A DNA stretch of 64,000 bases from Deltaproteobacteria bacterium (GTDB taxonomy: Bacteria > Desulfobacterota > Dissulfuribacteria > Dissulfuribacterales > QOAL01), in NCBI GenBank assembly GCA_026986785.1, contig JALSNW010000031.1, forward strand, positions 1 through 64,000, read 5' to 3'. This document shows positions 54,038 through 59,387 of this stretch, piece by piece. How positions within the stretch are numbered: position 1 is the stretch's first letter; the number at the start of each line of letters is the position of its first letter. The notes beneath the pieces are model-generated. The model saw only the letters and a program-made list of their open reading frames with translations. It did no database searches and was not told the origin of the DNA. The position numbers and the translations under genes were made by a program.

Positions 54038-54138
54038 ACCCAAAAGTGAAGGTCCAAATCCGTGATAAATCCCCAGGCACTTGAGTTAAAAGGGGTTTAC
54101 AACCTTACCGAATCTGTTTTGTTGTGGGGCAGTTGAAG
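54038..54138 (+). repeat. Right-module copy of the dispersed repeat
   Basis: The segment begins ACCCAAAAGTGA and ends TTGTGGGGCAGTTGAAG. It aligns over its whole length with 30313-30413, including a shared ATCCGTGA core and the ACCGAATC box. It lacks a visible left motif and lies between the clpB terminator and the ParB-like gene. Confidence 0.5.
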
Positions 54139-54280
54139 CTTCAGACCTTGCCTGGGTAAGTGCTATATTTGATCTCTTCCGTTATAGTACAATCCATGAT
54201 AGCCTCATTCAGATTGTATCAAATCACTTTGCTCTGTGGTCAGAAGAACAACGAAACGTAGGCTTGCCGTATGGACAAAG

Positions 54281-55291
54281 ATGCATATGATAAGAAACCA
54301 AATGATAAAAAGGATCCCCCTTGATCGTATCATGGCCCAGGGCTCCAGATATGCACTATCCAGAAGGTTTGAGCCTTTTGTAGAGCAGGTCTCAAGCGGT
54401 CTTGCCTTGAACCTGGATCAAGCGGGCTTGCTAATGCCGGTCTTGGCAAAGCTTCCACCAAACAACAGCCAACACCTACATTTGATCGATGGCTTCAAAC
54501 GGTACCAATGGGCCTGTCGAAAAGGACTTTCAGGCATAGATGTCAAGATCCTGGCCCAGGACTTTCCTGATCTCAAGATAGCTACCTATCTTGCCCATGA
54601 GCATGCAGGAATAATTTCTTCTACCATTGCCGCAAAGGCGTTGTTTATCACCTTCTGCTCTGGCCTTGGCCTGGAGAACGAGGACTTGATCGAGATCATC
54701 CTTCCTGCCATAGGGCTTCCTGCTCAAAGATCACTCCTTGACAAATATCGACGTATTGGGGCACTTCCACAAGAAGTGCTCTCGTTTTGCCACGAAAAAT
54801 CCCTGTCGTTCAAAAGATGTCTAAACCTGACGTATCATGATCGTAAGCTCCTGGCTTGGCTCATGGGGTACAGGAATGCTCTGCATCTTACAGCTACCAT
54901 CTTTCAGGAGCTCCTCGATGCCTTCGATGAGATCATGAGGAGGAAAGAAATGTCATTTCACGATCTGAAAGACACGCAGGACATCTCAAAGATATTGAAA
55001 GATGAAGCCCTCTCAGCCAGTGAAAAAACCGCTCGCCTTCGTGGCATGCTTAGGCTTTTGAGGCAACCGACCCTGACAGCAATAAATGCAGATCTCGATA
55101 AATGGAGGTGCCAAGTGGAAGGAGGTAACCAGGTCCTATCTATTGGTTGGGACAGGAGCTTGGAGTATGAGCATGTGGAGATACGGGCCAGGATCACCGA
55201 TATGGCACAACTCGAGGCAGTCATGGAGCATCTCCAGAGCGATAGAAGTCTGAGCGCTATTAACAAGATGTTGGAGAGGTTGAAGGCATAG
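54281..55291 (+). CDS. ParB-like N-terminal domain protein paired with an SPL-like radical SAM gene
   Basis: A protein of about 336 residues. The N-terminal third resembles the ParB/Srx-type nucleotide-binding fold: IKRIPLDRIMAQGSRY, then LHLIDGFKRYQWACRKGLSG, equivalent to ParB box II where GERR is replaced by DGFKR. The rest is helical with no obvious second domain. Typical ParB partners such as ParA are absent, so it is not a plasmid or chromosome partition gene in the usual sense. The start is uncertain: ATG 54281 is chosen, but GTG 54236 and ATG 54302 are in frame. Its stop is followed at once by the radical SAM gene (TAGATG), implying coupled expression. Confidence 0.65.
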   Translation: MHMIRNQMIKRIPLDRIMAQGSRYALSRRFEPFVEQVSSGLALNLDQAGLLMPVLAKLPPNNSQHLHLIDGFKRYQWACRKGLSGIDVKILAQDFPDLKIATYLAHEHAGIISSTIAAKALFITFCSGLGLENEDLIEIILPAIGLPAQRSLLDKYRRIGALPQEVLSFCHEKSLSFKRCLNLTYHDRKLLAWLMGYRNALHLTATIFQELLDAFDEIMRRKEMSFHDLKDTQDISKILKDEALSASEKTARLRGMLRLLRQPTLTAINADLDKWRCQVEGGNQVLSIGWDRSLEYEHVEIRARITDMAQLEAVMEHLQSDRSLSAINKMLERLKA

Positions 55292-56485
55292 ATGTCCAAT
55301 GTCACCTCCATCCAGAAAACCTCCTCCATGCGCCTGACAGGCATAAGCATAGAGCCTGATCTGGGCCATGAGATCGGAATAGAGCTCCCTTTGACTGGTA
55401 CAGTGGCCATAGAAAAGGCAAGCTTTCCCAAGATCAAGGACTATCGTGCAGGTAAGAGACATTTACATCTCGATATCAAACGTGGAAACCTGTTTCACCT
55501 CTGTGCCTCACTGGATCCTCGTTATATTTGCTGTAGCACCCATGTGGTCGCCCATGTCAGTAACTGCCCATTTGAATGCACTTACTGTTTCCTGCAAAAC
55601 TATCTCACCGATGCCACATTGACCCTTGTGGCCGATACGGATGCCATTCTCAAAGAGGTACGCCAGATGATCCGGCAACAGCCCTGGCGTACTTTCAGGG
55701 TGGGCACCTGGGAGTTGGGTGACAGTCTGGGCAATGAATTCATTTGCATGAGCGCAAAAAGACTTGTGGAAGGCTTCTCAGCCCTGGGCAATGCAGTGCT
55801 GAAGCTTCGTACAAAGGGGGCCCTTGTCGAGCCCCTTCTCCATGCCGATCACAAGGGGAGAACTGTCATATCATGGACTGTAAATCCACCTCAGGTGGTT
55901 GCCATGGAGGAGATAGGCACAGCCAGTATTGAAAAACGGATAACGGCCATGGCCAAGGCAGCGGATGCAGGTTATATGATAGGTCTCCATTTTGATCCCA
56001 TGCTGCTTTTTGATGGTTGGAAGAATGCCTACAAGGATCTTGTCCAGGAGATCTTTTCTCGTATCAGAACATCACAGGTCTGTTGGATCTCCCTGGGATC
56101 ACTGCGGTTTAATCCAGAGATGAAAAAAAAGATCGAATTGAATTATCCCCGCTCCAGGATTACTGCCCAAGAAATGGTGTTGGGAGATGACAATAAATTT
56201 CGCTATGTAAGACATGTGCGTGTCGGGATGTATCGCCACTTACTAAGGTGCCTCAAAGACGTAGGTGCGGATAGGTGTCTCATCTATCTTTGTATGGAGC
56301 GAATAAATGTATGGCGTTCCCTGTTCAAAAGGCCTCCCGAGACCATAGGAGAACTCGATTTCATGTTTGCAAGGAGCCTGAGCGAACGATTCCCCAGCCT
56401 TGGCCTGCCAGAACCTGAGCTGGATCTCTACCTAAAGGCGGCAGACAGTATCTATAAACCCGGATTATGCACTTCAAGGGCCTAA
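55292..56485 (+). CDS. Spore photoproduct lyase-like radical SAM protein
   Basis: A 397-residue radical SAM protein of the SPL family. The cluster motif CPFECTYC holds Cys92, Cys96 and Cys99, at nearly the same positions as in Bacillus SplB. Further matches to SplB are the RTKGALVEPLLHADHKGRT and AADAGYMIGLHFDPMLLFDG segments and GDDNKFRYVRHVRVGMY. The hydrogen-donor Cys141 of SplB falls on Thr139 in FRVGTWELGD, so ordinary photoproduct repair is unlikely. The host shows no spore genes. The last eight codons come from a dispersed repeat. Its substrate is unknown; the ParB-like partner suggests a nucleic-acid target, which is inference. Confidence 0.8.
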   Translation: MSNVTSIQKTSSMRLTGISIEPDLGHEIGIELPLTGTVAIEKASFPKIKDYRAGKRHLHLDIKRGNLFHLCASLDPRYICCSTHVVAHVSNCPFECTYCFLQNYLTDATLTLVADTDAILKEVRQMIRQQPWRTFRVGTWELGDSLGNEFICMSAKRLVEGFSALGNAVLKLRTKGALVEPLLHADHKGRTVISWTVNPPQVVAMEEIGTASIEKRITAMAKAADAGYMIGLHFDPMLLFDGWKNAYKDLVQEIFSRIRTSQVCWISLGSLRFNPEMKKKIELNYPRSRITAQEMVLGDDNKFRYVRHVRVGMYRHLLRCLKDVGADRCLIYLCMERINVWRSLFKRPPETIGELDFMFARSLSERFPSLGLPEPELDLYLKAADSIYKPGLCTSRA

Positions 56486-56560
56486 AAAACATCTTTTTGT
56501 ATTACAGCAATGGCTCACAAGTGTGCCAAATCCACTTTGTTGTCGGACAGTTGAAGTACC
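56459..56560 (+). repeat. Compact copy of the dispersed repeat
   Basis: The left motif CCCGGATTATGCACTTCAAG is at 56459 and the right module, GTGCCAAATCCACTTTGTTG and GACAGTTGAAGTACC, ends at 56560, so the unit is only 102 bases. ACTTCAA near the left end and TTGAAGT near the right end form an inverted repeat. The left motif overlaps the end of the SPL-like gene. The remaining gap to the aldo/keto reductase shows no gene. Confidence 0.6.
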
Positions 56561-56666: not shown

Positions 56667-57635
56667 ATGGCCCCGAGAATGCCCAAGCAGAGCCAGGAAC
56701 CTTTAAAACAGCAGCCAGGAATACCCCTTCCTATTGATCCAGAAGGTGTGTTGTTCCCTAATCTCTGGATTGGTACTTGGAGTATGGGGGGGGAAGGTTT
56801 TGGCCCTCATGATTTGGGACTCTCTTTAAGGACCTTGGAGACGGCCTATGAACAAGGGGTCAGGCACTTTGATACTGCTGGCTTCTATGCCCAAGGTCGT
56901 TCTGAAGTACTCCTGGCAAAGGCTTTCGGCAGAGTGCGTCCCAAGGTTTTCATCTCCACGAAGGGGGGGCTTGAAAGGGTGGGGCGCAAGGTCTGGCATG
57001 ATGCCAGGCCTGAGGCCTTGAGACAGGCCCTCTTTCAAAGCCTCGATCGTCTCAAAACAGACTACGTCGATCTTTTTCAGCTACATTGGCCCGATCCAGA
57101 GACCCCCCTTGATGAATCCATCTCGGCCCTCAAGGCCTTGAAGCAGGAAGGACTCATCCGCTATTGGGGGGTTGGAAATCTTTCTGCCCACGAGGTGTTG
57201 GGATATATAGGGCCAGGTGAGATGGCCCCTCATCAGGTCCATTTCAACCCAATTTACAGGTCTTCGTTCCAGGTCTTACAGGCAGGCAGGAGGGATTTCA
57301 GGTGCCTCAATTGTATAGTATCTCCCCTTGAGCAAGGTCTTCTTGCCTCTGGCATCTATCTGAGCAAAGAACTTGGGAAAAAAGACATAAGGCGGAGAAA
57401 TCCCTGTTTCCATGACAAGGGAATAAGAAAATGGCTTGAGGGGCTGTTTCACAGATGTAGCCTGAGGGGACTCAGCCCGGTAACTGTGGTCTTGTCGTGG
57501 ATCTTGAGTCATAAAGAGGTGGACGTAGTTATCCCTGGCCCAAGGAAGCCGGATCAGTTGGATGAGATCACGAGTTGTTTTGGCAGGTCCTATGACTCTG
57601 TCGAGCTGTCAGACCTATTTCATGACAATGGATGA
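56667..57635 (+). CDS. Aldo/keto reductase
   Basis: A 322-residue AKR. The catalytic set is visible: Asp in GVRHFDTAGFYAQG, Tyr in that same segment, Lys in VFISTKGG and His in LFQLHWPDP, then a VGNLSAHEV segment near 165 and a C-terminal VVIPGPRKPDQLDE loop for NADPH. It reduces an aldehyde or ketone; the substrate is unknown. The ATG 56667 has no strong ribosome-binding site. The radical SAM gene starts 54 bases later in the same direction. Confidence 0.87.
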   Translation: MAPRMPKQSQEPLKQQPGIPLPIDPEGVLFPNLWIGTWSMGGEGFGPHDLGLSLRTLETAYEQGVRHFDTAGFYAQGRSEVLLAKAFGRVRPKVFISTKGGLERVGRKVWHDARPEALRQALFQSLDRLKTDYVDLFQLHWPDPETPLDESISALKALKQEGLIRYWGVGNLSAHEVLGYIGPGEMAPHQVHFNPIYRSSFQVLQAGRRDFRCLNCIVSPLEQGLLASGIYLSKELGKKDIRRRNPCFHDKGIRKWLEGLFHRCSLRGLSPVTVVLSWILSHKEVDVVIPGPRKPDQLDEITSCFGRSYDSVELSDLFHDNG

Positions 57636-57689: not shown

Positions 57690-59387
57690 ATGGAAGAAGC
57701 ATCCATAAGGACCAGGAGTCTGATACTTGTATCTCCTCCCTTCATGAGGCCATTGTCTCCCCCTTTGGGGCCAGCATCCCTAAAGGCCTTTTTACACCAG
57801 GAGTTACCCATGGCAGAGGTGAAATGCATAGATCTAAATCTGGAGTATTTTTATTTGGCTCTTCAGTGGTTGGAAAGTGGTATGATAAAATTGCGCCTTT
57901 ATGACTGGGATGACAAAAAGACCGCCATAATGGTGAAAAAGGCCTTTGAATTCCTCCGCACTACTGCTCCAAGGCCTGAAAACATAGATGGATACCACAG
58001 GCAGGCCACGGTCTTTCTCAGTTTTGAGAATATCTTCAATGCATTTATATCAGAGATGGCCATTCGTTTTATCGTTGGTGCCCCAGTGCCAGCCAGTATA
58101 TCTTCCTTTCTCCACAGGCTTTGTTCGACTGTCTTGGAGTCTGCTGCAGATGTGGTAGGCATCTCTGTCATGTTCGATATACAGATGCCCTTGGCCCTCC
58201 TCATGGCAAAAAAGGTAAAGGATTCCACTGGTGCCTGGGTGATTCTCGGTGGGGCGAAATTTGGTGTTGAGCCAAGCTACCACAGGCTCTTAAGCGAGCC
58301 GGTGACCAAGAAGGTGCGGGGCATAGAGTATAGATGCCAGCCTGCTGATTTCATAGATGGCATCATCTCGGGAGAGGGCGAGGTGGCCATCTTGCATATC
58401 TTGAGGTCCAAGAATCGATTCCAGATGGAACAGGCCCCAAATCTCAGCTTCAACAACGGCGAGCGAATAGTTCACAACAAACCTGCTGTGATAGACGACC
58501 TGGACAGGCTGCCATGTCCAGATTTTTCCGATTTCAGTCTACAAAGATATCTTTGTCCAGAAGAGATCTTACCCCTGCTCACTGCTCGGGGTTGCCCTTG
58601 GGGAAGATGTGCATTTTGTACGCATCATCGTTCATACAAGAGGTACAGACAGCGCTCCATCCCCAATGTTGTAAGGGATTTCAAGTACCTAAGGGAGCGC
58701 TATGGTGTAAGGATATTTAATATCTATGACGAGATGATCCCGCCGGGACGGTTCAGGGCACTTGCGAAGGAATTGATAAAAGGGGATCTTGATATCTGTT
58801 ATTCGGCCTATGGAAAGCCAGTCAGGGGCTTCACCGACTCGACCTTGGGGCTTATTCGTAAATCTGGCTGTGGGTTGATTCTTTGGGGTCTGGAATCTGC
58901 CAGTCAGTCCGTTCTGGATCTCATGAACAAGGGTACGAAGATATCCGAGGTGGAAAGGGTATTGAAGAGTTCGGCAAAACAGGGCATAAAAAATCTCGTT
59001 TTCGTCATGTTTGGTTTCCCAGGCGAGAGTGAAGCAGAATTCATGGAGACCATAAATTTCTTGGAAAAGAATAGGCCTGCCATCCATGCACTGTCAAAGG
59101 GGCTTTTTAGGCTCACCGAAGGCTGTCGTGTCCATAATGATCCAGAGGCGTTTGGGATCACAGATATAGAGGAATTAAAGGTCCAGCCCTTCAAGGCCAA
59201 GCATTTGATCTTCAATACATCTACCCCCTTGGACCCTGCCAAGGCAGAAGGGCTTTTCAGGGCCAATCTCAGACGGATCGAGGCTATTGGCATTACATCG
59301 CGCTTTGGCACATATCGAGAGCACCTTTTGATTTACGCCTGCCAAGAGGATAGATCCTCGTCCTTTGAGATAAAGGGACATGGATGA
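57690..59387 (+). CDS. B12-binding-type radical SAM protein with CX4CX2C motif
   Basis: A 565-residue protein. The N-terminal part (residues 9-250) has the LVSPPFMRPLSPPLGPASLK start and SVMFDIQMPLALLMAKKVKD of a cobalamin-binding-like Rossmann fold; no DxHxxG B12 loop is clear. The radical SAM barrel follows with CPWGRCAFC, giving Cys302, Cys307 and Cys310, a CX4CX2C spacing instead of CX3CX2C, plus YDEMIPP and GLESASQSVLDLMNKG downstream. Proteins of this class act in methylation or in RiPP and lipid modification. Function here is unknown; the upstream aldo/keto reductase may share its pathway. Confidence 0.82.
   Translation: MEEASIRTRSLILVSPPFMRPLSPPLGPASLKAFLHQELPMAEVKCIDLNLEYFYLALQWLESGMIKLRLYDWDDKKTAIMVKKAFEFLRTTAPRPENIDGYHRQATVFLSFENIFNAFISEMAIRFIVGAPVPASISSFLHRLCSTVLESAADVVGISVMFDIQMPLALLMAKKVKDSTGAWVILGGAKFGVEPSYHRLLSEPVTKKVRGIEYRCQPADFIDGIISGEGEVAILHILRSKNRFQMEQAPNLSFNNGERIVHNKPAVIDDLDRLPCPDFSDFSLQRYLCPEEILPLLTARGCPWGRCAFCTHHRSYKRYRQRSIPNVVRDFKYLRERYGVRIFNIYDEMIPPGRFRALAKELIKGDLDICYSAYGKPVRGFTDSTLGLIRKSGCGLILWGLESASQSVLDLMNKGTKISEVERVLKSSAKQGIKNLVFVMFGFPGESEAEFMETINFLEKNRPAIHALSKGLFRLTEGCRVHNDPEAFGITDIEELKVQPFKAKHLIFNTSTPLDPAKAEGLFRANLRRIEAIGITSRFGTYREHLLIYACQEDRSSSFEIKGHG

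Follow-up and report, generated by a model that had tools for sequence, protein, structure and literature searches.

An SPL-like radical SAM protein, a ParB-like protein and a GT2 glycosyltransferase are inherited together in non-spore-forming bacteria

Genes annotated as encoding spore photoproduct lyase (SPL) in bacteria that do not form spores are usually taken to function in DNA repair. In SPL itself (SplB; TIGR04070, PF20903), the cysteine at C140 of the Geobacillus enzyme (Gt) or C141 of the Bs enzyme is the hydrogen donor (PMC3742179), and the catalytic cysteine of the Clostridium acetobutylicum enzyme has been reported as C74 (PMC5368176). A second point of reference for the locus described here is the chromosomal ParABS system, in which ParB, and likewise Noc and KorB, joins a ParB-N domain to a helix–turn–helix (HTH) domain. 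Two further precedents pair a radical SAM enzyme with a GT2 glycosyltransferase: the logic of hopanoid side-chain genes (HpnH/HpnG/HpnI) combines a radical SAM enzyme, a nucleosidase and a GT2, and mycofactocin (MftC/MftF) and the TIGR04283 'arsenosugar' glycosyltransferase place a radical SAM enzyme and a GT2 in one pathway.

The locus studied here lies in a 64,000-nucleotide stretch of DNA, which we refer to as the window. It shares with SplB the fold, the CxxxCxYC motif, a conserved tyrosine at the SAM adenine and the TK motif, and with ParB/Noc/KorB the ParB-N and HTH architecture, recognized by profile and by model, and possibly a C-terminal domain of the ParB type. None of its components has the full complement of features that defines SPL or ParABS. 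The three-protein system that emerged from our analysis was not found in a literature search restricted to open-licence papers, where the single paper to mention both SPL and ParB dealt with another matter.

Two abutting genes with SPL-like and ParB-like folds

The features of the locus, all on the forward strand, are as follows.

54094–54138, +, dispersed intergenic repeat, copy 1, upstream of the ParB–SPL pair
54281–55291 including the stop codon, +, ParB-like partner gene (gene A), an open reading frame of 336 amino acids
54848–55288, +, C-terminal half of the gene A product, all that several lineages keep next to the SPL-like gene
55273–55279, +, GGAGAGG, from its sequence a plausible ribosome-binding site of gene B
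55292–56485, +, SPL-superfamily radical SAM gene (gene B), an open reading frame of 397 amino acids with its ATG at 55292
56512–56556, +, dispersed intergenic repeat, copy 2, downstream of the pair and in the same orientation as copy 1
56667–57635, +, aldo/keto reductase (AKR) gene, after gene B (Pfam 3.6e-51, synteny)

As the original prediction had it, the two genes abut: the TAG stop codon of gene A (55289–55291) directly touches the ATG of gene B, and the GGAGAGG element lies 12 nucleotides 5′ of that start, within the 3′ end of gene A. An alternative in-frame GTG at 54236 would lengthen the product of gene A by 15 residues. The core of the flanking repeat is TTTGTTGTCGGGCAGTTGAAG, within a longer similarity of about 100 nucleotides, and its pattern has 25 matches in the genome versus 1 for a reversed control pattern. 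We rejected the two copies as borders of a mobile cassette because the repeat is dispersed and the AKR gene, which appears to have moved with the pair, lies outside them. A small Rho-N-like protein and a zinc-ribbon protein encoded upstream were also set aside as system components, being local neighbours only.

Gene B is a spore-photoproduct-lyase-like radical SAM gene, as first proposed. Its product matches the Pfam SPL model (8.4e-31) and, used as a profile, solved SPL (4.7e-41), and its structural model (pLDDT 88.5) matches SPL by Foldseek with an E value of 8.5e-23 and a TM-score of 0.80. Against the TIGR04070 equivalog model it reaches 116.7 bits, far under the 400-bit cut-off. Gene A as a single sequence has no ParB match in Pfam or NCBIfam, and family profiles were needed to detect its fold. 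A profile built from 26 relatives matched the solved structures of Noc, Spo0J and ParB (best 2.5e-21), and the AlphaFold model (pLDDT 93.7) had ParB, Noc and KorB as its top Foldseek matches, which upholds the description of the gene as ParB-like. The protein consists of a ParB-N/HTH portion (about residues 1–190) and a family-specific C-terminal half (about residues 190–336) for which neither Pfam nor the PDB has a matching domain. In whole-length hhalign comparisons, the family aligned with ordinary ParB over 229 columns reaching the C terminus (E 2.1e-19), and the C-terminal half by itself aligned weakly (E 0.037, probability 1%). From these alignments the C-terminal half may be derived from the ParB C-terminal domain.

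The surroundings of the pair are those of neither a sporulation nor a partition locus. No Spo0A is encoded anywhere in the window's genome, which is 99% complete, in agreement with the earlier remark that a sporulation setting is missing. Across that same genome there were no ParB_N Pfam matches, so that the organism may have no standard ParABS or else a very divergent ParB. The window contains no parS-like site at three or fewer mismatches (chance expectation 0.21), and gene A has no adjacent ParA and has instead a radical SAM gene as its partner. Its ParB-like fold, together with the failure of ParB_N to detect any other ParB in the genome, could be taken to mean that gene A is the true partition ParB and that gene B has an unrelated role in repair. 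We consider this hardly credible, given that gene A lacks a ParB Pfam match, that the window lacks parS-like sites, that relatives carry another, full ParB alongside the ParB-like gene and that the N-terminal and HTH halves of the family are dispensable.

Co-inheritance of three genes

In a set of 158 genomes from the phylum, the SPL-like and the ParB-like gene each occur in 86, and 81 genomes carry both (Fisher 4e-32, a value that overstates independence because the genomes share ancestry); the possibility that the pair does not co-occur outside this genome is thereby strongly contradicted. The two genes are adjacent in 54 of the 81 genomes and unlinked in 27. Of the five SPL-only genomes, four carry a C-terminal-only ParB-like gene directly upstream, and in the fifth (G208) the open reading frame with the SPL-like domain also weakly matches the ParB C-terminal half (E 5.5e-5). 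On the ParB-only side, the SPL-like gene is cut off by a contig end in one genome and is present as a fragment in another, and in three further genomes the ParB-like gene lies, by its coordinates, at a contig start. Within the window's own family, the two genes mostly sit side by side.

The association extends well beyond the phylum. We examined 80 named genome loci drawn from many phyla; in 40 of them a ParB-like gene precedes the SPL-like gene immediately or nearly so. By record names, mostly those of metagenome-assembled genomes (MAGs), the linked pair occurs in Thermodesulfobacteriota, Nitrospirota, Neomarinimicrobiota, Acidobacteriota, Gammaproteobacteria, Bdellovibrionales, KSB1, Binatia and Margulisiibacteriota. 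Where the SPL-like gene stands alone (20 genomes), a ParB-like protein is encoded elsewhere in 15, and these 15 unlinked proteins match the family profile over nearly its full length, with scores clearly apart from those of ordinary ParB. The expectation that the pair is functionally conserved in bacteria with no known link to sporulation was thus borne out.

The original prediction had called the pair a two-component system, which did not hold: a specific GT2 is co-inherited almost as tightly, and a nucleosidase and AKR are frequent neighbours. The GT2 gene lies 5′ of the ParB–SPL pair in many loci, and the GT2 relatives of the system form a distinct subfamily, found in 86 of the 158 genomes at E ≤ 5e-96, with the next matches at only 3.5e-69. 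This GT2 and the SPL-like gene occur together in 81 of the 158 (Fisher 4e-32, with the same overstatement from shared ancestry), and after correction for fragments all three genes are present in 82 of the 92 genomes in this set that have any of them. Six genomes with the SPL-like or ParB-like gene have no GT2 of the subfamily. In a sample of 99 genomes, largely nearer to the window, GT2 and the SPL-like gene (its presence counted to include one fragment) are both found in 43, singly in 2 and 2, and neither in 52. Each of the possible adjacent pairs exists, namely GT2–SPL without ParB, GT2–ParB without SPL and ParB–SPL without GT2. The GT2 gene is frequently unlinked from the pair; in the window's genome, for example, it is found on contig C41 (4218–5771), fused behind an MTAN-like nucleosidase domain. 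Simple hydropathy suggests that the GT2 is soluble in most members.

Inheritance of the three-protein system in these non-spore-forming bacteria is mostly all-or-none, and it is strongly supported that the SPL-like, ParB-like and GT2 proteins serve one pathway. That they are co-inherited by descent only, with no common function, would fit the gene order common to related genomes. It is very improbable, however, as the SPL-like and ParB-like genes are both kept in the 27 genomes in which they are unlinked, all three genes are missing together from 5 genomes of 2 genera in the window's family and present in sister genera, the ParB-like, SPL-like and AKR genes appear to have moved jointly in the window's genome, and a truncated partner remains beside the SPL-like gene in other lineages.

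Altered active site and a reduced ParB-derived partner

We counted residue conservation in gene B over 111 SPL-like relatives; overlong SPL open reading frames in high-GC genomes were treated as spurious extensions. The positions discussed below are these.

55502–55534, +, extra cysteines C71, C80 and C81, each present in 111/111
55565–55588, +, CxxxCxYC motif (C92, C96, C99; Y98), invariant in 111/111
55712–55714, +, E141, which aligns with the catalytic cysteine of SPL (C140 in the Geobacillus enzyme), glutamate in 109/111
56291–56293, +, C334 in a YLCME motif, the fourth near-invariant extra cysteine, present in 110/111, the remaining one being a gap

The cysteines of the CxxxCxYC motif are the predicted ligands of the radical SAM [4Fe-4S] cluster. 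Elsewhere the family departs from SplB, with glutamate at the C140/C141 position, with I, F or V in place of the relay tyrosine (Y98 Gt/Y99 Bs; tyrosine in 2 of 111), with the additional C80, C81 and C334 and an HFDP motif, and with a ParB-derived partner, predicted to be obligate, in a host without sporulation. C71 aligns with S76 of Geobacillus SPL, the site changed to cysteine in PDB 4rh0. By alignment alone it also falls at the place of C74 of C. acetobutylicum SPL, so a cysteine may still act as hydrogen donor. In other groups of the SPL superfamily, C80 and C334 are either both present or both absent, which fits joint metal binding by the two residues, although it is no proof of a cluster. 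A further superfamily group, seen in four loci, has C80 and lacks C71 and C81, and C334 is present there wherever the sequence is not cut off.

The SPL-like family is also less basic than the rest of the superfamily (median pI 7.6 versus 9.0, p 6e-6, uncorrected for relatedness), and the system's proteins are less basic than ordinary ParB as well, although the window's own two proteins are basic. We treat this lower basicity as a soft argument against a DNA substrate.

In the ParB-like protein, the most constant positions among 119 sequences, P263 (118/119) and E295 (117/119), both lie in the C-terminal half. The first CTP-binding box (GERRxR) retains GxxR in about 108 of the 119, and the second (EN..R) retains N in 38 and R in 48, with both residues absent from the window's protein; judged by sequence, the second box is mostly lost across the family. 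Several lineages have lost the nucleotide and HTH domains of ParB altogether, and a C-terminal half of about 165–180 residues stands directly before the SPL-like gene. Since it is the C-terminal half that is retained, the system can do without a ParB sensor, and the suggestion that the protein is a ParB-type nucleotide or DNA sensor is weakened by this loss and by the incomplete CTP-binding boxes. Taken as a whole, the original account of genes, motifs and coupling stands and the conserved pair with it, but its two-component reading does not; its sensor reading is weakened, and action on modified or damaged DNA is left as a candidate. A ParB of which only the C-terminal half remains, serving as partner to a radical enzyme, would represent an unusual reuse of this protein.

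One rival reading is a role as an anaerobe's DNA-repair lyase, in which a UV-induced or other thymine lesion would be reversed with C71 as hydrogen donor, the ParB-derived protein would bring the enzyme to DNA and the GT2 would owe its linkage to something else. Such a role would agree with the SPL fold and its conserved TK/R positions, with C71 at the place of the C. acetobutylicum catalytic cysteine (PMC5368176), with the DNA-binding ancestry of the partner and with the single-strand DNA-binding protein (SSB) gene that follows in about 9 loci of the Desulfobulbales type. It conflicts with the missing relay tyrosine and the glutamate at the C140 position, with the extra cysteines and, despite the basic protein of the window, with the lower pI of the family, and it leaves the co-inheritance of the GT2 unexplained. 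We therefore judge it rather unlikely; the near-exclusive three-way gene profile and the altered active site together indicate a reaction different from that of SPL. In the Desulfobulbales-type loci (L119, L131, L139 and similar), the SSB gene after the SPL-like gene is accompanied by a DnaJ-like gene.

Neighbouring genes and a proposed pathway

In the window's genus the gene order is marC, PNP-GT2, ParB-like, SPL-like, a reversed 418-aa gene, AKR and folC. The window's genome has marC, PNP-GT2, the 418-aa gene and folC on contig C41, and the ParB-like, SPL-like and AKR genes together beside clpB, which is most simply explained if these three relocated together. AKR also follows the SPL-like gene in MAGs of Gammaproteobacteria, Bdellovibrionales and Nitrospirota. 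Several phyla have the nucleosidase attached to the GT2, and its domain retains the MTAN-type motifs of active nucleosidases; nucleosidase and AKR are adjacent to the system in only part of its range.

The computation shows the folds, a near-exclusive co-inheritance, conserved adjacencies, the disappearance of the ParB domain from some lineages and the residue patterns; from these we infer a pathway whose physical contacts, order of steps, chemistry and substrate may be sketched as follows. The SPL-fold radical SAM enzyme would modify a substrate by means of the 5′-deoxyadenosyl radical, with the ParB-derived protein as its obligate, non-catalytic partner, acting through the C-terminal half, and the GT2 would add a sugar to the same product. 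Where present, the nucleosidase could clear 5′-deoxyadenosine or cut adenine off an adenosylated intermediate, and the AKR could reduce an exposed sugar or aldehyde. We hold the core of this scheme, a co-inherited three-protein pathway of radical SAM modification with an obligate ParB-derived partner and sugar addition by the GT2, to have an even chance of being right. Somewhat more tentatively, it may be an undescribed three-component pathway of many non-spore-forming phyla, in which the SPL-fold enzyme, its obligate ParB-derived subunit and the dedicated GT2 make a glycosylated modification on an acceptor new to biology.

DNA is the target of relatives in both the SPL and the ParB families, which provides a prior for a nucleic-acid substrate. 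One such possibility is hypermodification of nucleic acids, with DNA or RNA selected by the ParB-derived protein, a base activated by the radical SAM enzyme and the sugar added by the GT2; this scheme unites all three components and accommodates the nucleosidase attached to the GT2 in several phyla. We nevertheless regard it as unlikely, because ParB-N and HTH are dispensable, the SPL-like protein had no relatives in viral contigs searched with the SPL profile, and the PADLOC defence models had no match for the ParB-like, SPL-like, AKR or PNP-GT2 proteins. Plasmids yielded only distant SPL-family matches. On balance we slightly prefer a small-molecule, lipid or protein substrate over nucleic acid.

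A more specific alternative is a hopanoid-like route, in which the SPL-like enzyme would adenosylate an acceptor, the MTAN-like domain would remove adenine, the reductase would reduce the sugar and the GT2 would decorate it. Exactly these enzyme classes co-occur in the system, the nucleosidase matches HpnG among other models, and the GT2 lies beside a LytB–UbiA isoprenoid gene in 10 genomes. The best HpnG score, however, is 62.7 bits, far under the 187.1-bit cut-off, the radical SAM protein is of the SPL rather than the HpnH type, the nucleosidase and reductase genes are not adjacent to the system everywhere and the route assigns no role to the ParB-derived partner. We know of no adenosylating SPL-fold enzyme. 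The route therefore receives only a small share of our confidence. The mycofactocin and 'arsenosugar' precedents also differ: the GT2 scores about 66–91 bits (cut-offs 280 for MftF and 182 for TIGR04283), and neither a peptide precursor nor arsenic genes were seen. The family offers a ready test set of three genes for which co-phenotypes are predicted, in phyla ranging from Thermodesulfobacteriota to Neomarinimicrobiota.

Away from the module, the GT2 has mixed neighbours, including LytB–UbiA, GH57 and RecG (the last named from its sequence, without a library search), with no common theme or single pathway. It follows the LytB–UbiA fusion gene, often overlapping it, in 10 genomes (loci L240, L241, L251, L252, L255, L257, L258, L259, L270 and L273), which gives a lead to an isoprenoid link. 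In loci L261, L262, L265, L266 and L268, and also in L124 and L118, it adjoins a GH57 alpha-glucanotransferase-type gene, in some of them behind clpP–clpX. In the window itself, the AKR gene is followed at 57690–59387 by a B12-binding-type radical SAM gene, whose product scores 142.9 bits against a RiPP C-methyltransferase model and 107.1 bits against a PhpK-type P-methyltransferase model, both below the cut-offs, and has a weak PADLOC match to PDC-M51A (1.7e-8).
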